A stretch of DNA of 52,210 nucleotides. It comes from a virus. The notes below the pieces were generated by a model. It was given only the letters and a program-made list of their open reading frames with translations. It was not told the DNA's origin and searched no databases. Positions within the stretch are counted from its first letter, which is position 1; the number at the start of each line of letters is the position of its first letter. The stretch is from positions 1-52,210 of the IMG/VR virus record IMGVR_UViG_3300021197_001105; one strand, 5' to 3'. The translations under genes and the position numbers were made by a program. Of the stretch, positions 10,592 through 20,580 are shown piece by piece.

Positions 10592-11485
10592 ATGCACAGT
10601 ACCGGATCATTCCTACTTACCGTAATTGAAAGAGTTCGTGCTTACCTAGACGAGGCCACCCTCGATGCTAAGTACACGAACGATTATCTGGTACGCCATG
10701 TTATCTGCCCAGAAATGGTAAATGTTCTGGCTCGTCTTAGGAACACGTTTGATAATCCAATTAGAATCCGTCACTCCATAACTCTGGAGAAGAGCACGGA
10801 ACATTACATCCTTCCTCCTAATGTCGGAGAGGTGTACCGGATTGCTATTCTTGACACAGAAAATCGTGTGACCCAGGAGATGAGTCCTCGTAATGAGTTC
10901 AATCCCCGAGGACCAAACTGGCAGCTTCAAGGGAACATGCTCTCGTTTCGCCCTCTACCCGGAGTTGGCCAAAGTGTGGATGTTCATTACATTCCAAACG
11001 GAGACTTCCAACCCCATTTTGATTCGGACGGGGGGAACCTTGCTTCTTCCACTACGTTTGTTTTTGATAATGCTCCTACTCTGGGGTCTGTAGACCGACG
11101 TGAAAATGCTTATGCGGGAGCAATCCTAAGAGTCTGGGATTCAAGTACAGATGTGATTGAAGAGCGTGTAATCAAATCCTACGTAGCTGACACAAGAACT
11201 GCTACGGTCCACATACCGTTTACCCATTCAACAGGAAGTGGTAGAAAGTACGAAGTTGCTCCTGTCGGAATGAACTCGTTGTACCAAGCCATAGCTTGTG
11301 CTTGTTCCATTAACTTGGGGACAGCTAGAAACATAACGCAGAAGCAGATGAATTTTATTCTTCTTCAATACAAGATGGCTATGAAGTCTGTGGGTGATAA
11401 TCTGTCTAACATGCAGGCACGGACTGGTAAGTTCTACGACAAGAAAACTGTAGATAACAATGCACAGTTGTTGTTGGGTGAGTAA
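10592..11485 (+). CDS. Probable head-tail adaptor/connector protein
   Basis: This encodes 297 residues. The N-terminal 50-60 residues (VIERVRAYLDEATLDAKYTND) form the helical opening characteristic of head-completion or adaptor proteins. A beta-rich region follows (EKSTEHYILPPNVGEVYRIA; GQSVDVHYIPNGDF), and the C-terminus returns to helix (ITQKQMNFILLQYKMAMKS). Helix-beta-helix architecture with position after portal and capsid matches adaptors such as T7 gp11 or P22 gp4, which ring the portal and bind the nozzle. This is inference from pattern; no enzymatic motif is present. Confidence 0.6.
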   Translation: MHSTGSFLLTVIERVRAYLDEATLDAKYTNDYLVRHVICPEMVNVLARLRNTFDNPIRIRHSITLEKSTEHYILPPNVGEVYRIAILDTENRVTQEMSPRNEFNPRGPNWQLQGNMLSFRPLPGVGQSVDVHYIPNGDFQPHFDSDGGNLASSTTFVFDNAPTLGSVDRRENAYAGAILRVWDSSTDVIEERVIKSYVADTRTATVHIPFTHSTGSGRKYEVAPVGMNSLYQAIACACSINLGTARNITQKQMNFILLQYKMAMKSVGDNLSNMQARTGKFYDKKTVDNNAQLLLGE

Positions 11486-12576
11486 TGAGTCAAGGAAGCC
11501 TAGGGGTCAATCCTAATAACCACGCCCTTTCCATATCCCTACAGACGGACATCAGTAGATCTCCAGACGGGCTAGAAGAGGAGAGGATTGGGTTTCTTAG
11601 AGAGCTTAGGTTCGAGGGGCCCCCAATGGCCGAGGGCTCGGGTAGTTCGGTTATGGGTGTTAATCCTGGATTCATGCGTCCGGGTAACGGATATCAAGGA
11701 AACACGGGAATAGGAATCCCCGGAAATCCTATTATTGAAACGCCACCCGTTGTTGGGACTCCACCTGAGCCACCTTCGTTCCCAATTGGAGGAGGAGGCA
11801 CAACACTCTCCTTCTCTACAGGCACCTTCAACAGTCCCAGTCCTCCTTCGTTTACTGAAACCTTTGTCAGTAGCTTTGCAGTTACTTCGGGGTCTCCTCC
11901 CCAGCCTCCTTCAGGACAGACAGGAACTGATGCTTCTGGAGATAGTTCAGGCTGGAACAATCCCCAAACCGAGGGAGGAGGGTTCCCTAATATCTTGCAG
12001 TTTGGTCCGGGCGGAGAAGAGACTGAACAACCAGAAGAACCAGAGAATGATCCTGATTGCGTAAACGGGTATATCCCACTTGAACAACCCTACAACGAGG
12101 GTGATCAAGCTCCTGATATGCAGAAACAGTTTGATCCCCTTAACCCAGATAGAACTCACCTATGCACTACGCCACAGTCATGCGGAGCTAATCTGTGCAC
12201 TGGTCTTCCGGTTATCGACTTCAAGAAACCTAACTTTGACGTAACAATTACCTGCGGAGGAAACACATTTACCTTCGACGATAGCGATCTAGTCGGACCA
12301 GACCAAGGACCAGGATCAGGTAATCCTTACTGGGAACACTACAACCAAACAAGCCAGCTTGGTCCCCCAAGACTCAATGTTCCAGTGGGAATGGAAGGTT
12401 GTGGTTGTGGAACCAACAACCCAATCATTGTCAATATTACTTGGGAATACGAGATAGAGTGCGACGGAGGAGGCAGCGTCTGTTGTTGCAAGACAATCCA
12501 AGGCGTTGAGGTGGGTCAGAACGGTAACTGCAAGATCTACGAAGACGAACAATACACGACGAGTAACTGCTGCTGA
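11485..12576 (+). CDS. Hypothetical Pro/Gly-rich protein with Cys-rich C-terminal domain
   Basis: The ATG overlaps the preceding stop (TAATG). Residues 1-195 of 363 are low complexity (Pro, Gly, Ser, Thr, Phe). The remaining part is folded and unusually Cys-rich: about 14 cysteines, including CGCG, VCCCK and a terminal SNCC. Such Cys density suggests metal binding or an extracellular disulphide-stabilised module, which would suit a particle surface appendage. It lies between the adaptor candidate and the DUF115-like enzyme. Function unknown. Confidence 0.72.
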   Translation: MSQGSLGVNPNNHALSISLQTDISRSPDGLEEERIGFLRELRFEGPPMAEGSGSSVMGVNPGFMRPGNGYQGNTGIGIPGNPIIETPPVVGTPPEPPSFPIGGGGTTLSFSTGTFNSPSPPSFTETFVSSFAVTSGSPPQPPSGQTGTDASGDSSGWNNPQTEGGGFPNILQFGPGGEETEQPEEPENDPDCVNGYIPLEQPYNEGDQAPDMQKQFDPLNPDRTHLCTTPQSCGANLCTGLPVIDFKKPNFDVTITCGGNTFTFDDSDLVGPDQGPGSGNPYWEHYNQTSQLGPPRLNVPVGMEGCGCGTNNPIIVNITWEYEIECDGGGSVCCCKTIQGVEVGQNGNCKIYEDEQYTTSNCC

Positions 12577-13499
12577 TGAGAGATGATAGGCCAGAAGCCC
12601 ACTTCAATCTCAAAAGTAAACCTTCTTCTCCTCCTGAACCTCGAAACCGAGGAAACAAAAGAGACTTCTGTCTTTACTCGAGGGATAACAACAAGGTTGA
12701 CTTGAAGGATTTGTATTACGGTTCGAGCATCTTCTTGCTTTTGTCGGGCCCGTCTTTGTTGGATTCCCCGCTTGAGTGTTTGCGGGAGATAAATGCGTAC
12801 ACTTTCGGGGTCAACAACAGCTGGTCTGTGTACCGACCGACTTTCTGGACTTGCATGGACGGGGTAGAGAAGTTTCTCTCCGGAGGGTGGCGTGACCCCA
12901 GGATCACCAAGCTAATCCCCAACGGGAAACAGAACCACCAGCTCAGGACCAAAACAGATAAGGGGTTTTTCAACCTGTCGACTAAGGCAGGAGATTGTCC
13001 CGGGGTCCTCTACTACAACAGGAATCTGGAGTTCGATCCAACTACGTTTCTCACCGAGTCCACGGTTAACTGGGGTCAAGACGGGAAGACTCAGGATCTT
13101 CTAGGCATCAAAGGCTGTCGGAGCGTGATGCTGGCAGCCGTCCGGCTTTGCTATTACTTGGGGTTCAGGACTATCTATATGTTGGGGTGCGACTTCAATA
13201 TGACGCCCGGAAAACAGAACTATGCGTTCCCCCAAGACAGGTGGGATACTTCCATCCAAGGTAACAACAACACTTACGAAGGATTGAGGAGAAGATTTAA
13301 GGCTCTCCAATCCCACTTTGAAAACCACGGACTGAAGATCTTCAACTGTAACCCGGACAGTAAACTTGATACGATTAGGCATAAGCCCATAGAAGAGGCT
13401 TTGGAAGAATACTGTAATTCACTGCCTGAGATGGAAGACACCTTGGGCTGGTACGATAAAGAAAAAACAATAAAGACGGTTAGACGAAATGGCAAATGA
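12576..13499 (+). CDS. DUF115/MptE-like protein (sugar- or nucleotide-modifying candidate)
   Basis: This encodes 307 residues; the ATG overlaps the previous TGA. The pattern resembles DUF115 (MptE-like) proteins: a short strand ending in LLLSGPSLLDS near residue 55 as the nucleotide-binding loop, then AYTFGVNNSW near 75, PTFWTCMDG near 92, and CYYLGFRTIYMLGCDFNMT near 192, where the final Asp sits in a conserved strand-end position. DUF115 members include pyrophosphokinases and enzymes tied to glycan modification. Here it lies in the virion block, so modification of host or virion glycans is possible but unproven. The 3' end overlaps the giant nozzle-like gene by 11 nt. Confidence 0.6.
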   Translation: MRDDRPEAHFNLKSKPSSPPEPRNRGNKRDFCLYSRDNNKVDLKDLYYGSSIFLLLSGPSLLDSPLECLREINAYTFGVNNSWSVYRPTFWTCMDGVEKFLSGGWRDPRITKLIPNGKQNHQLRTKTDKGFFNLSTKAGDCPGVLYYNRNLEFDPTTFLTESTVNWGQDGKTQDLLGIKGCRSVMLAAVRLCYYLGFRTIYMLGCDFNMTPGKQNYAFPQDRWDTSIQGNNNTYEGLRRRFKALQSHFENHGLKIFNCNPDSKLDTIRHKPIEEALEEYCNSLPEMEDTLGWYDKEKTIKTVRRNGK

Positions 13500-16400
13500 G
13501 ATTTCAAGCAAGTGGTATTACCCCCTAACCGAGGTAAGTCAAGACAAGCGGGTAGCTCTTCCTGGTGTAAAGCCGGGGTACGCTTCCGAACTAGCTGGCT
13601 TTGACGGGCAGCTATCCGGGGGTCTTCGACCTTTCTCGGGGTTCAAGAATATCTACGATCTAGATATGCTCACCTCTGACGGGGGAACTACGGCCCACGC
13701 TGCTGATAGCGTGAACCTTACCTACCACAATACAAGCACCCATGTCACCGACTTCTTCCCTATTACATTCAACATCGACTTTGATACCTACGGCTATGGT
13801 TTTGTCTACCGAGCACAAAGACCCAACCAAGGCTCATCTGCTACATTCACTTTCAGTGGTGCAGTTGGTGTAAACGAAACTATCCAGATCATTGATAACT
13901 CAGGCACCCCAGTAACCAAGGTTTATAAAGCTGCGTCTAGCGGAACCAGTGGTACTGAATCCTCTGCTGTTTCTGCTACCGCAACTTTCACGTTTAACGC
14001 TGTTGCCCAGCTAGGCGGAACAATAACTCTCATTGGCTCCGCTGGTCTATCTAAGACATACATGGGATCTAACGACGACGCCGACTCTAATGGGACGGTA
14101 GACGCCACGGGTAACATCATCTTCAAGGTAGGTGCAAGCAACACAGACTCCTCTGCAAATCTCCGAACCGCAATCCTGGCCACCACCGGACACAATGGAG
14201 CGATCAGCGTAACTGACGATGGAGGAGGCAAACTAACCCTGACCCAAAACGACGGAGGACTTGACGCAACTCAAGGACTAGCGGGGAATAAAGCCATTGT
14301 GGTGTCGACAACGCCCGACTTCAATGAGAAGTGCAGCGTAAATCCTCCTTCGGCTTTTACGGGAGGCATCGACTCTTCAGTCATATTCCGAAACGATACA
14401 GGTGCTAATGAAAACGCAGCTGCTCTTAAGGTTGCAATTGAAGCAAGTTTAGGGCATAACAACACTGTTGCAGTTGAGGTAGTTGGAGCAAAAGTAACTC
14501 TTACCCAGGCTACTGTTGGTGAGTCCGGGGACACTGCAATTACCGTCTCAAGTAGTTGGAACAGTGCGTGCTCCGTCAATGTCCCCGCTAAGTTCACGGG
14601 TGGATCTACAACCGACAAGGCAGATATCTTCCTAGACTTCTACCTTGCTGAATGTGACGTGTATTCAACGGGCAATGTAATCAAAGCAAACATAAGTTCT
14701 ACGGAGCCTATGGATGTCGAGTCTACAGGTCGAATGGTATTCGTAGGTGTTCGGGGAGTAGATCCTATTCTGTTCTATGTGACAGAAGACCCTCCTGGGA
14801 TTGACGAGACAAGCACGTCACACAGTATTGGTTGCATTGCGGGTGGAGACTGCACCTCATCTTCGGATGGTAGTAGCTACTGTCCCGCTATTGCGTCTCT
14901 TACTTTTGACGCTGTAGTCCCTTCCACAAATATTATTACCTCTGTCAGTGAGAAGGGGATAATTGCAACAAGGACAAATTCCAAAGCAGAAGCAAGTTGG
15001 AAGTTTACGGAAAGGGCGGAAGAAGGAAGCGCAATACAAATAGAGTCTAGTGATGGAAGAAACATCTATTACAAAGCTAAGGGTGGAGCAACCAACGGAA
15101 CTATAGAATCATCAGGTGGGGTTGATTACGTTCTCTTTAACTCCGGAGCTACTGCATTTACTACAGGCCAGTTTACCTTTAGTGGTGCCATGCCTGCGAA
15201 TGAAACAATCAAACTCATCGACACAAACGGCAAAGAAAGAATCTACGAAGCCGCAGCCGGTGGTAGTCCCGCAGTTAAGGGTTCATCCGAGACCCAGGCA
15301 ACAGCTACCTTTACGTTTGAATTTAAAGCTGTAGAAGGAAGTACTCTGACTCTAACTGACAATTCTGCAAGTCCTGTTACTAGAATTTACAAGTGCATGA
15401 CGGACGCAGAAGAAACAGCGGGTACTTATGAAAACGGTCAAGTTGGAAATGAGGCTGATTCTTCTTTCTTGATGTTCAAGCGAGGAGACAGTCCTGCAAA
15501 TTCCGCAACTAATCTTGTAGCTGCAATCAATAATGCTGCAAACACAATAGGTATTACAGCTGCGGTAGCAACATCAACTACTGTCAACTTGACCCAAGAC
15601 ACAGCTGCTTTATCAACTGGTACGCTTGCCGATGGCAACACCAACGTGGGCTCTGGTTCTTCCTTCACAAACGCTTGCTCGGTTAATCCTCCGTCTGCCT
15701 TTACCGGGGGTGGGTTTACTGTTGAGTTTACGCGAGGCAGTAGTGCTGCGGACACAGCAGCTGGATTGAAAGCTGCGGTTATCAATGCTTTAGGCCATGA
15801 AAATACAATTGCTACAACATACACCCCCAGCAGTGCAAACTTGACTTTGACTCAGTCTGTGTATGACGGAACAAAGGGCGGAACTGCAATAGCTGTCAGT
15901 GGTAGTTGGAATGCAAACTGTTCCGTAAACCCTCCAAGTGCTTTTGGTGCAACCATCGTTGCGGCAACAGAAGCCACTGCCGCAGCTACGAACTTCAAGG
16001 CTGCTGTCGATAGTGCAAGCGGACACAACTCGACAGGGGGCTTTGGAACTACGACACTCACGTTTGATAATCAACCTGCAGCCGGATCTGAGATACAACT
16101 TATATCCAGTGTTGGCACGGATAAGACAGTTAATTACAAAGCAACAGCAACTCTTGAGTCAAATGGAACCCTGGATGGCACTGATGTTTTGTTCTACAAC
16201 GGATCAGGAAACACAGATGCGGGTAAGAATGAGGCAGCTTACTACCTGAGAAAAGCTATCAACTCTGCTAACGGACACAACGCAAGTCCGGCAAAAGCAA
16301 CGGCGACATTTAATTTCTTCGAGAATCCGGGCGAGGGACCGAAGGTTACAATCGTATCTACGGATGGAACTTCAAGGTTGTTTGAGTTCAGCACTGGAGG

Positions 16401-19400
16401 AGAGACTACAGGAGACGTTGGGGGCGGTAGTCAGATCTTTGTGGGGGTTTCTGCTAGTGCTTCTCCAGGTGTAGCCGCACAACAATTTGCTTCTGCAGTC
16501 AATTCTTCTAATGCGTTCGGGGGTTCTAGCCCAAAGATAATTGCTACTGTTTCAGCTAAGACTGTAACTCTTACCCAACAAACTGAAGGAGTTGCGGGTA
16601 ACTCGACTATCACTTACAACGTGGTTGCTTCGGGAAGTAAATTAGATTCCTATATTAATCCAGCACCTACCGCATTTAGCGGAGGAACCGTCGACTGGAA
16701 CGGAACTACACTAAACACAGAACAAAGACTATCTGTTGAAGAAGACATCGGTGTTGTAGGCAAACTTACCTTCCGTCAGCTCGAGACCACCTCGGGTGGT
16801 AATACAACAGTAACCACAGACTCTGCTATGAACACCGCTACAAGTGGAGGCGCAGTAGCTGACTTTGCCGGAGGGGGATCTGCTAGTACTTCATCGAACC
16901 TAAGATTCACGGTAACCGCCAACGGAAGTGGTACTGCTGGACAAGTAAATATGCAACAGTCCTTGGGTGATGCCCGAGGAAACAAACCTATATTTACTTT
17001 CTTTGGGTTTAACAACAATACAAGCCCACCTCCACCAGAGAGATTTGCTGGTGGCGGAACCATGCTAACCAACTCAACTATGACTCTTGTAGACGGGGAA
17101 GGTAACTCTCACATCTACATCTATGACAGGTCTTCTACAAACCAGAACGGAGATCAGGATACTGATGGTAGATATATCATTGGCATCCAAGAAGAACTCT
17201 CTCTCACAGAGCAAGTGAAGGCAACTGTACGAGTTATTGCAGCAGCGTCTGACAATACAAAAATAACTGCATACGCAATTAACGACAAGAAACTGGGACT
17301 GAAACAACTGGTATTAGGTACGGTTGGAAACACCTCAGTGGTTCTAAGCACTGATGCTGCAAAACTGATAACTAAGACTGACTTTACCGGGGGGGTTGGG
17401 CCGCAATCTGCAAGTGCAGCTACCTCTGTTGCAAGTGTTTCTTGTGCTGTCAGGCACAGCTTGGTAATAGAAGAAGAAACAGGGCCAGGTCCAAAGCCTT
17501 TGTTGGAAGGGCCATTCCAAGGTTGGCAAAACGCATACGTGGTTGATACTCCTTCTCCTGTCACTGTGCCATCTAATGCTCGTTTGATCTTCTCGGTGAC
17601 AGCACCTAACTCAGGAATCTACAAGAGTATTGGAGAACCTCTCTTTGACGGGGGATACACAATTGACAGTGTCCTTTATAACGGAGGAACCAACGCTGAG
17701 ATTGTAGAGACCTACAACCAAATCCAAATTGCTAACAACAACCAGAACGATGCGGTGTACGGTTTCATTGATTGCGACTTTGATTACGGAGGAGAGGCAG
17801 GAGACGGGGACGAAGTTCCTGAAACAGAGAATGACGGGAACTCTGGAACGGATGTTGATGACCCTACTTGCTCCGAGCTTTTGGAGCTTGCTATTCCACA
17901 CATTGGAATTTCTCCGGGAGGAGTTGTAAATCCTGGTCCAGATCCCTTTGCCAGTCCAAACAAACAAGCTGTTAGACGAACGATTTGTAACTACAAACTC
18001 AACTCAATAACAGATGGTAACCAAGTAAACCAACTTCCAATTATCGAGATCTTTACGTACACGTTTGCGCAAGGAAACAATCCTTCGCATGAGTTTAAGA
18101 TCTGGAATTGCAAAATGGATATCTACGTTAGAAAGAAGAACGACGCAGAAAATCCTTTTGTCGAGGGAACGAACAACCCAGAAGGTTATGGAAACTTTCA
18201 GCTTGCAGCTACCAACGTCAATCTCAAGATTGACGAGAAGAAACGAAATGAGATGTATACGTACGTTTCAAACTCCAAGGGAGGAAAGTTTGCCCAGTTT
18301 GTTCCTAACGGAGGAAGAGACATTGTGTTGGTGAACGAGGAAGCCAAGTCGTTTGCAACTGCAGCTGGGTATACCGATACTGAAAAGGGAGGTAACAGTC
18401 ATGCGAACTGCTACATAACCCACTTCAATATGGCCTCGGTCTTTGGGTGCGATAACTTCTCAGCGGGGGAGTATCAGGTCCAGGTTGTATGGCGAACGAT
18501 GTGCTGTGAGCCAGTGCAAAACAAGTCCAGTGAAATCATCACGTTCACCGTAGATCCTGCAATCTGCGAGTTTGAGGGTGAGGGAGAAGAGAAACAAGTT
18601 TCTGACTTGAAGAGACTAAAAAAAGGAAACTATGTATTTTCCTATGTTCTCTACGACAGTAAGACCGGAAGACGATCTGCACTCACCGAAGTACTCACTG
18701 TAAAGGAAGAAGATTTTACAGCCGACGAGAACTTTGCTTTCATTGATCTGGTGTACGACAAGACAAAGTATGATCACGCATACTTCTACCGTTCTGTAAA
18801 CACACAGGACGCAGGAGGAGTTAGCGTTGCTGGTGTGTTGAGCTTGGATCGAATTGCAAAACTCCAAGACTACATCATTGACGGCAACCAGCCAACTAAC
18901 ACAGACTATAGAAGAGCTGTGTATCCCTACAAACTTGAAGATATGTCTATCTTGTATCAGCCCACGTACAGGACGGAGACGCCTGTCTTTGACGAGAAGA
19001 TGCCAGCTGGGGGCAGTATGCTTTGGTACGGCAACACTCTCCTGGTGTCCCGTATCAAGAACGCAGGGGCGTCCTCGTCGACAGAAGAAAGAATCGAAGA
19101 CGTACAGCGGGGAATAGGAGAGCTTAGGTGGTCATCTATGATGGAGAACTCTCCTGAGATGTTCTCTCCTTTTAACCGGTACGTTCCCGTGGTTCCTTCA
19201 AACGAGATCATTGCACTCAAGACTCTTGGGGATGTGGTCTATGGATTCAGTCGAGATCGTGCTTACAACATCCGCAAAGACAGTGGAATGGGTATTGCCT
19301 TCATGAAGGTAATGGACCTGCACGAAGGCTTTGGAACCACAGGAGCCAACTCACTGGAGGGTGTGGGTTCTTCTATGTACTACATGACTCCAAAGGGGGT

Positions 19401-20580
19401 CAAAGCTCTGAACACTAAGGGGCAGCTAGACGACGTTCGTGCGTTCGACCACCACATTTCTACCTACTGGCCACGCGATCTGAGTAATGTCCATATGTCT
19501 TACGACCCGACAGGCTCAGTTATGTTCATCCTTGACCCGAGTAAGGAAGAAGTCCTCTGCCTTTGGTTCAACACAGGCAAGTCTACGATGCTCAAGGACA
19601 TGTCATTCACCCAAGTCAAGAAGGGTCCATGGCCAAACAACCCAGATATAAGATCCGACGAGCTTGTAGACCGTGCCATGTTCCTTCAGAATCCCCCCTC
19701 CGAAACAGGTGCTCAGGGCTTCAAGCCCCGGATCTACTCCCACGACTACAAGTACGAGAGAACCATTGCCGGTTCAGGTACATCTGCATTCAACGGTAAG
19801 ACTCGCTTAACCCTGATGGACGGCCAAGGAGATACCCGATTCTCTACGCATGGTTCCGTGTCCTCCAAGGTTCTAACCATCGACAACGCAGATGGAACAA
19901 AGGTTTCCAATGCCTGGGTTGGAGGTTATGTGTATGTCATGGATTCTTCGACCTCCTCTTACATTGGCAAGAAATCTAAGATCATCAAGATTGTTACTCC
20001 AGACATAGATGAGATAGGTGCGGGAGGGGTAGACGCTTCATCAAAGGCGGTACTTACGCTTGCTGACGCCACTCTAGATAGTCTCCCCGCTGGTTCTCGC
20101 GTCTGTGTGTCGCCTGTCTACATGCGGTGGATTGGCCACAATATTGGACTGAACTCAGAAGAAGGCACGCAGTTCGGGTCTTCAAACGACTACCACACCC
20201 TGAAGCATATGGACTCTTTGGAGGTGGCATTTACCGATGTGGTTGGGCCTCCCTCAACGGATAGTTCTAAGGATGCCAGATATAGCGGGCTGGCATTCAA
20301 AGGCTCTAACCCAACTCCGGTAGATAACCGATTCCCAACGGACCTCAACAACGCAAAGGTCCAGTCGGTACAAGACAACGAGTCTGTCAATGCAGTAGCA
20401 TTCGGGGAAGATACGGCAGCGGCTCTGGCGATGCAGGGTATGCACGGAGTCAAGGGATCTTCGATAGCTCCGGGGCTAGAAGTCATATGTCCAGACTTGG
20501 ATTTCAGGCTTCTATCAGGTATTGTTATAGGCAAGGTTCTACCCACAACCAGGAACACCAGACCGAACGTAGGAATGTGA
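13489..20580 (+). CDS. Giant nozzle/stabilisation-like tail protein with inserted repeat array (2,363 aa)
   Basis: The N-terminus (residues 1-110; FDGQLSGGLRPFSGFK) and the C-terminal about 1,000 residues resemble tail-nozzle or packaged-DNA-stabilisation proteins (P22 gp10, T7 gp12 type). Supporting segments include NEIIALKTLGDVVYGFSRDR near 1905 and MYYMTPKGVKALNTKGQLDD near 1965. This core is interrupted by arrays of beta-rich repeats at about 111-375 and 490-1318. Each unit runs roughly TFTF, ITLID.GT.K.Y.A, GHN, TLTQ, then CSVNPPSAFTGG. A non-repeat piece (about 378-465; TGRMVFVGVRGVDPILFYVT) lies between them and looks like core. Typical nozzles are 450-900 residues, so this one is greatly enlarged. 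The repeats probably extend as surface or receptor-facing domains. Confidence 0.62.
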   Translation: MANEISSKWYYPLTEVSQDKRVALPGVKPGYASELAGFDGQLSGGLRPFSGFKNIYDLDMLTSDGGTTAHAADSVNLTYHNTSTHVTDFFPITFNIDFDTYGYGFVYRAQRPNQGSSATFTFSGAVGVNETIQIIDNSGTPVTKVYKAASSGTSGTESSAVSATATFTFNAVAQLGGTITLIGSAGLSKTYMGSNDDADSNGTVDATGNIIFKVGASNTDSSANLRTAILATTGHNGAISVTDDGGGKLTLTQNDGGLDATQGLAGNKAIVVSTTPDFNEKCSVNPPSAFTGGIDSSVIFRNDTGANENAAALKVAIEASLGHNNTVAVEVVGAKVTLTQATVGESGDTAITVSSSWNSACSVNVPAKFTGGSTTDKADIFLDFYLAECDVYSTGNVIKANISSTEPMDVESTGRMVFVGVRGVDPILFYVTEDPPGIDETSTSHSIGCIAGGDCTSSSDGSSYCPAIASLTFDAVVPSTNIITSVSEKGIIATRTNSKAEASWKFTERAEEGSAIQIESSDGRNIYYKAKGGATNGTIESSGGVDYVLFNSGATAFTTGQFTFSGAMPANETIKLIDTNGKERIYEAAAGGSPAVKGSSETQATATFTFEFKAVEGSTLTLTDNSASPVTRIYKCMTDAEETAGTYENGQVGNEADSSFLMFKRGDSPANSATNLVAAINNAANTIGITAAVATSTTVNLTQDTAALSTGTLADGNTNVGSGSSFTNACSVNPPSAFTGGGFTVEFTRGSSAADTAAGLKAAVINALGHENTIATTYTPSSANLTLTQSVYDGTKGGTAIAVSGSWNANCSVNPPSAFGATIVAATEATAAATNFKAAVDSASGHNSTGGFGTTTLTFDNQPAAGSEIQLISSVGTDKTVNYKATATLESNGTLDGTDVLFYNGSGNTDAGKNEAAYYLRKAINSANGHNASPAKATATFNFFENPGEGPKVTIVSTDGTSRLFEFSTGGETTGDVGGGSQIFVGVSASASPGVAAQQFASAVNSSNAFGGSSPKIIATVSAKTVTLTQQTEGVAGNSTITYNVVASGSKLDSYINPAPTAFSGGTVDWNGTTLNTEQRLSVEEDIGVVGKLTFRQLETTSGGNTTVTTDSAMNTATSGGAVADFAGGGSASTSSNLRFTVTANGSGTAGQVNMQQSLGDARGNKPIFTFFGFNNNTSPPPPERFAGGGTMLTNSTMTLVDGEGNSHIYIYDRSSTNQNGDQDTDGRYIIGIQEELSLTEQVKATVRVIAAASDNTKITAYAINDKKLGLKQLVLGTVGNTSVVLSTDAAKLITKTDFTGGVGPQSASAATSVASVSCAVRHSLVIEEETGPGPKPLLEGPFQGWQNAYVVDTPSPVTVPSNARLIFSVTAPNSGIYKSIGEPLFDGGYTIDSVLYNGGTNAEIVETYNQIQIANNNQNDAVYGFIDCDFDYGGEAGDGDEVPETENDGNSGTDVDDPTCSELLELAIPHIGISPGGVVNPGPDPFASPNKQAVRRTICNYKLNSITDGNQVNQLPIIEIFTYTFAQGNNPSHEFKIWNCKMDIYVRKKNDAENPFVEGTNNPEGYGNFQLAATNVNLKIDEKKRNEMYTYVSNSKGGKFAQFVPNGGRDIVLVNEEAKSFATAAGYTDTEKGGNSHANCYITHFNMASVFGCDNFSAGEYQVQVVWRTMCCEPVQNKSSEIITFTVDPAICEFEGEGEEKQVSDLKRLKKGNYVFSYVLYDSKTGRRSALTEVLTVKEEDFTADENFAFIDLVYDKTKYDHAYFYRSVNTQDAGGVSVAGVLSLDRIAKLQDYIIDGNQPTNTDYRRAVYPYKLEDMSILYQPTYRTETPVFDEKMPAGGSMLWYGNTLLVSRIKNAGASSSTEERIEDVQRGIGELRWSSMMENSPEMFSPFNRYVPVVPSNEIIALKTLGDVVYGFSRDRAYNIRKDSGMGIAFMKVMDLHEGFGTTGANSLEGVGSSMYYMTPKGVKALNTKGQLDDVRAFDHHISTYWPRDLSNVHMSYDPTGSVMFILDPSKEEVLCLWFNTGKSTMLKDMSFTQVKKGPWPNNPDIRSDELVDRAMFLQNPPSETGAQGFKPRIYSHDYKYERTIAGSGTSAFNGKTRLTLMDGQGDTRFSTHGSVSSKVLTIDNADGTKVSNAWVGGYVYVMDSSTSSYIGKKSKIIKIVTPDIDEIGAGGVDASSKAVLTLADATLDSLPAGSRVCVSPVYMRWIGHNIGLNSEEGTQFGSSNDYHTLKHMDSLEVAFTDVVGPPSTDSSKDARYSGLAFKGSNPTPVDNRFPTDLNNAKVQSVQDNESVNAVAFGEDTAAALAMQGMHGVKGSSIAPGLEVICPDLDFRLLSGIVIGKVLPTTRNTRPNVGM
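13819..17445 (+). repeat. Array of degenerate protein repeats inside the nozzle-like gene
   Basis: About nine degenerate units of roughly 80-120 residues each are encoded here. Landmark CSVN-type segments lie at nt 14332, 14569, 15676 and 15919, with weaker versions near 16655 (NPAPTAFSGG) and 17379 (DFTGG). A TLTQ/LTLTQ-type strand precedes most of them. A non-repeat core segment interrupts the array at about 14620-14960. The DNA copies are diverged, so this is an old expansion at protein level rather than a recent tandem duplication. Confidence 0.75.

Follow-up and report, generated by a model that had tools for sequence, protein, structure and literature searches.

One question is raised by the DNA analyzed here, a virus record of 52,210 bases (referred to in its full length as the window): what is the product of a single unbroken open reading frame of 2,363 aa (13489–20580, + strand), and what are the repeats that it carries? 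An initial annotation, made from the sequence alone, regarded this product as a tail nozzle-like protein enlarged by two blocks of beta-repeats. Direct searches with the whole protein gave zero matches in PHROGs, Pfam, PDB sequences, isolate phages, and viral contigs; relatives were found by scanning with the terminase and a capsid-region protein, and further ones by means of profiles of the C-terminal core. The nozzle genes of these relatives encode proteins of 882 to 3,726 aa with a common core of ~900 aa, and the extra length is located at fixed loops.

The genes on the + strand of the window are located in the order terminase, probable portal and capsid genes, adaptor-like gene, variable gene, glycosyltransferase-like gene, and the open reading frame in question. 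The adaptor-like gene (10592–11485) matches Pfam SU10_adaptor with an E-value of 6e-4, below the curated cut-off, and it is separated from the large open reading frame by two genes, an order conserved in the relatives. The first of these two (11485–12576, 363 aa) occupies the position of the tail fibers of SU10 and varies among phages from 363 to 1,358 aa (for example, L058:2055–6131 and L052:3473–5566); in relatives it contains collagen-like GPxG repeats and Cys-rich parts, in L058 it holds a single weak copy of the unit of the repeats described below, and in L046 (489–1622) a Ser/Glu/Thr-rich low-complexity linker of the SETSS type. A substitution of the shortened fiber by the repeat array has been considered and is unsupported (Spearman -0.14, p 0.64, 14 phages). 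The second gene (12576–13499), directly upstream of the large open reading frame, keeps its position in most relatives; its product matches the phage alpha-2,3-sialyltransferase family phrog_4603 (E 4e-9) and, weakly, Pfam MptE-like, and might modify some virion protein.

The identity of the core has been addressed by means of a structure model of the 1,121-aa relative L058, built from an alignment of 21 sequences (mean pLDDT 68.5, pTM 0.65). In a Foldseek search of this model against the PDB, the first 27 places were all occupied by phage nozzle or tail proteins (E 4e-18 to 2e-6), including those of cyanophage A4, T7 (gp12) and its relatives, SU10, crAss001 (muzzle), and P22 (gp10). The lack of a nozzle core in such a model, which would have refuted the initial annotation, was looked for and did not occur. 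Comparison of profiles by hhalign with the T7, P22, SU10, and crAss001 nozzles gave no significant match; these include P22 gp10 and T7 gp12, with which a comparison had been suggested at the outset. The nozzles of SU10 and T7 likewise show no detectable sequence similarity to each other (PMC9509320), and therefore sequence homology is not a defining feature of this family. Big repeat-rich phage proteins are frequently fibers, and an ordinary tail fiber or another structural protein might be suspected here; however, this reading is strongly disfavored by the predicted fold of L058, and it is hardly tenable considering also the adaptor-proximal position of the gene and the existence of repeat-free orthologues of typical nozzle size. 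The fold match of the relative, the gene order (adaptor, fiber slot, nozzle), and the repeat-free relatives of 882–945 aa sharing the core provide a firm basis for the identification, and the 2,363-aa product is almost certainly a podophage tail nozzle of the T7 gp12 type with large inserts, as far as a modeled relative can tell.

Repeat-free nozzles of 882, 902–910, 923, 932, and 945 aa have been observed, together with repeat-bearing forms of 1,121, 1,255, 1,257, 1,428, 1,670, 1,886, 2,316, 2,363, and 3,726 aa. Most, not all, of the forms of at least 1,121 aa carry the repeat, and two of 1,226–1,233 aa have a different insert in its place. The comparison of repeat number suggested by the initial annotation could thus be made, and gave from 0 to at least 12 copies on the same core. 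The closest relative is 39% identical and is located on a separate contig, where the order of the repeat pieces is the same except for weakly detected ones; a misassembly is therefore unlikely. A scan of a genome collection yielded solely one contig, binned in a Myxococcales MAG, which is not evidence of a host. This contig (L082) encodes a nozzle relative and has the same length, 15,163 bases, as the viral contig L072; in all probability its DNA is viral and was placed in the MAG by binning.

Relative to the short forms, insertions are present in the window protein at two sites, after residues ~116 and ~460, followed by a non-repeat enlargement up to ~1705. The N-terminal core (residues 1–116; 13489–13836), which aligns with the relatives of 882–1,255 aa, would form the start of the platform and propeller. 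The first repeat block comprises residues 119–372, and a core segment (residues 373–~460; 14605–14868) separates it from the second block (residues 504–1302), in good agreement with the two blocks split by a core-like piece delimited in the initial annotation (residues 111–375 and 490–1318). A region absent from that annotation comes next (residues 1303–1705; 17395–18603): it is free of repeats, is enlarged in the large relatives, contains a core motif GPGPKP, and after this motif probably includes further domains, whose content is inferred. In the 3,726-aa nozzle of L061, residues ~2560–2800 have by eye the look of a right-handed, pectate-lyase-like beta-helix, with no Pfam match. The C-terminal core (residues 1706–2363; 18604–20577) is assigned to the Ig-like nozzle domain, the remaining propeller blades, and the platform. 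As judged by their order along the chain, both sites precede the Ig-like domain and correspond to the first two propeller blades. In SU10, blades 1–3 of the nozzle are far from the channel axis (PMC9509320), and an outward orientation of the inserts is inferred for the window protein. The third-position GC is 0.37–0.45 in the blocks vs. 0.54 in the core, which is consistent with a separate origin of the blocks.

The inserts consist of eight copies of one domain of ~120 residues, which in the L058 model (one copy, residues 408–506) is predicted to have four strands, a helix, and three strands. The hallmark motif pointed out earlier is present, as CSVNPPSAFTGG or a close variant, at about residues 282–293, 361–372, 730–741, and 811–820. 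With an HMM of all members, 13 stretches are detected in the window, of which many are incomplete copies, and an HMM from which the window protein and the relative closest to it were excluded detects the same 13, in both blocks; with this independent model, intact copies reach E-values of 9e-10 to 7e-17, and several split pieces are individually weak (0.2 to 0.004). No HMM matches were found in 200 shuffles of the window protein. A self-comparison of the protein by BLASTP yielded no off-diagonal matches that could be used, and the unit consensus gave nothing significant against Pfam, PHROGs, the PDB, and phages; nor has the window protein any NCBIfam or Pfam match. The same domain family is found in gp17 and gp13 of the Rhodobacter phage RcTitan (HMM E 7e-8 and 9e-7). 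The former (L081:10535–12748) is an unannotated protein of 737 aa in the likely position of the major tail protein, with two copies that appear by eye to be nested after the first strand.

The partial stretches become intelligible when the unit model is cut into three parts, A (1–46), n (47–76), and c (77–119); a family model recovers all 24 such pieces of the window at E <= 5e-3. The pieces read AAncnc / AAAncncnAnAnccc / Anc, and the full string, AAncncAAAncncnAnAncccAnc, cancels completely as nested brackets: successive removal of each Anc leaves nothing, with a depth of three. In block 1, one copy is located inside another. The A half of the outer copy U1 (residues 119–167, model 1–47; 13843–13989) is followed by the intact copy U2 (residues 166–293, model 1–119; 13984–14367) and by the n and c half of U1 (residues 297–372, model 44–119; 14377–14604). 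In block 2, a copy in three parts, U3, encloses one nested pair per gap. Its A part (residues 504–556; 14998–15156) precedes a first pair, made of the A part of U4 (residues 561–609; 15169–15315), the intact U5 (residues 607–741; 15307–15711), and the n and c part of U4 (residues 744–819; 15718–15945). The n part of U3 (residues 823–849, model 47–73; 15955–16035) precedes a second pair, made of the A and n part of U6 (residues 856–933, model 1–73; 16054–16287), the intact U7 (residues 940–1066; 16306–16686), and the c part of U6 (residues 1080–1129, model 73–119; 16726–16875). The c part of U3 (residues 1132–1189; 16882–17055) closes this arrangement, and the intact U8 follows (residues 1192–1302; 17062–17394). 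The "degenerate repeats" of the initial annotation are thus real repeats; most of them are complete copies into which further copies have been inserted, and the evidence favors recursive nesting over a plain array.

A linear tandem array, in which the A-only and n/c-only pieces would be decayed remnants and their bracket-like order a coincidence, has to be weighed against this reading. L058, L059, L060, and L071 carry unsplit copies and L088 two tandem copies at site 1, all of them intact, and a simple permutation of the piece order gives only a modest p of 0.016; with intact copies set aside, random orders cancel with a probability of 12/1680 x 1/6, about 0.001. However, break points occur only near model positions 41–53 and 66–81, which in the L058 model map to the loop leading into the helix and to the hairpin that comes next, and the model resumes about where it stopped. 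Joined split halves score 67–110 bits vs. 56–115 for intact copies. Moreover, distances between A halves correlate with those between n/c halves more strongly under nested pairing (r 0.59) than when halves are re-paired within proteins (0.47 ± 0.05; 0.6% of re-pairings reach the nested value). The same pattern is present in several proteins: the nested pairs at two places of the window can be aligned over their full length with those of proteins from three other contigs, together with a single additional incomplete sequence; this alignment was too variable for a scan of genome collections. In the 3,726-aa protein of L061, 36 pieces (12 copies) cancel completely to a depth of eight, in a hand-curated parse in which one weak piece was dropped and 11 of 12 type-II pieces were recovered by leave-one-out. 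An automatic stack parser fed with the pieces of the independent HMM performs well for the window and L066, and makes three errors in L062 and eight in L061 because weak pieces are missed. Within a nested gap of the L066 nozzle (residues ~810–920), a Ser/Glu/Thr-rich low-complexity linker (SETSS type) has been noticed. A tandem array with decayed pieces is, on the whole, improbable. Relatives with tandem or unsplit copies (probably also L089, with two tandem copies at site 1 as in L088) are plausible unnested stages.

A different objection concerns the folded units rather than the chain: neighboring repeats might exchange halves, so that the order along the chain looks nested and the folding units are swapped and interlocked. 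Recursively inserted HABAS domains of RNA polymerase are sometimes domain swapped (PMC11515920), and crossed pairings are only weakly excluded here, since among the 256 combinations of nested and crossed pairing of inner and outer halves the nested one ranks 10th; local domain swapping therefore remains possible. Nevertheless, all-crossed pairing does worse (0.48 vs. 0.59), inner copies have a normal linker from A to n, and such swapping seems rather unlikely. The model of a nested pair of the window has a mean pLDDT of 83.6 and a pTM of 0.66, without contacts between halves having been seen. Split copies are observed to complement each other and to close in nested order in the window and in L061, and recursive self-nesting of the domain in the window nozzle is very probable, with good support from the sequence, the joining of halves in three dimensions not having been seen.

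The role of the array is less clear. Site 2 of the siblings L086 and L087 is occupied by a DNRLRE domain (NCBIfam E-values of 8e-13 and 7e-11, both above the cut-off), matched in L087 also by Pfam CBM96 (E 1e-4); this family is related to carbohydrate-binding modules. Such matches are restricted to these siblings, the inserts of the window protein giving none. The presence of this domain at the same site makes binding to the host surface the best guess for the repeat array, and a host-binding adhesin on the nozzle is, by this analogy, slightly favored; it is inferred without direct evidence, neither binding residues nor a ligand or host being known. Of the two locations put forward in the initial annotation, the receptor-facing one is accordingly plausible and the capsid surface has no support. 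Alternatively, the nested array might be a structural or protective sleeve that stiffens or shields the tail without binding the host. The unit is rich in Ser, Thr, Gly, and Ala and has no recognizable binding motif. In addition, the fold of the nested pair has 23 matches at E <= 0.001 among predicted viral proteins (and only weak ones, none at E <= 0.001, in the PDB); those named are predicted baseplate J-like, tail sheath, major tail, and tail tubular B proteins, and in sheath and major tail proteins decoration is a simpler role. On the other hand, the recurrence of the fold in such proteins also speaks for adhesion, a carbohydrate-binding-type domain occupies the same loop in siblings, and a copy number from 0 to at least 12 fits a surface that interacts with the host better than an essential stiffener. 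The sleeve can be maintained as a minority possibility.

Several known systems are comparable in part. T7 gp12, SU10 gp17, and P22 gp10 resemble the window protein in the predicted core fold and in a gene placed after the adaptor gene, and SU10 also in additional Ig-like domains that interrupt the propeller (PMC9509320); they differ in having no significant sequence similarity to it and a different inserted domain, whereas here two earlier loops are used, recursively, and the length reaches 3,726 aa in a relative. Another example is the muzzle gp44 of crAss001, in which a propeller of the nozzle type is expanded by Ig-like insertions, one of them hosting a large insert itself (PMC10172136). 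Its length varies among relatives, as here, although it involves unlike domains with shallow nesting instead of one family inserted repeatedly into itself. For self-nesting, the nearest precedent, cited for its architecture only, is provided by the RNA polymerase of cyanobacteria, in whose Si3 insert HABAS domains are recursively self-inserted, with a six-level example (PMC13114784, PMC11515920). Si3 belongs to a cellular enzyme and its domain is described differently; the present case is a virion tail protein with depth three (a curated depth of eight in a relative). RcTitan gp17 and gp13 share the domain family, with the apparent nested pair in gp17, but are siphophage-type proteins of the head and tail-tube region and not nozzles, and the break follows the first strand. 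No viral case of recursive domain self-insertion was found in the open-access literature searched, subscription papers being outside its scope.

A mechanism can be proposed on these grounds. A hexameric nozzle (the hexamer is inferred), formed by platform, seven-bladed propeller, and Ig-like nozzle domain, would close the tail channel, and loops in its first two blades would take up surface modules. In the window both loops would be filled with copies of a single beta/alpha domain that itself admits insertions at two internal loops, one preceding the helix and the other in the turn of the following beta-hairpin; one copy after another would therefore have been taken up within earlier ones, and the domains would form out-and-back or branched trees and not a linear fiber. 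Six copies of the protein would place 48 repeat domains around the tail tip, and these most likely would bind glycans or other receptors of the host surface, holding the phage before ejection, a role that is likewise inferred. Taken as a whole, an outward-facing, recursively grown adhesin on the nozzle is a reasonably probable explanation. That the domain's own loops are preferred landing sites for its copies, so that recursive self-insertion builds branched trees (reaching eight levels in one relative) and a rapidly expandable nozzle adhesin, is more tentative and falls somewhat short of an even chance.

This finding is of biological significance because it would represent, in a virus, the recursive self-insertion of a single domain family, and because the graded natural relatives, from no copy to at least 12, make the evolution of nested domains testable. 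Finally, a site on the nozzle surface appears to be swapped between a carbohydrate-binding-type domain and the repeat array; therefore, these uncultured phages may recognize their hosts by means of the nozzle itself.
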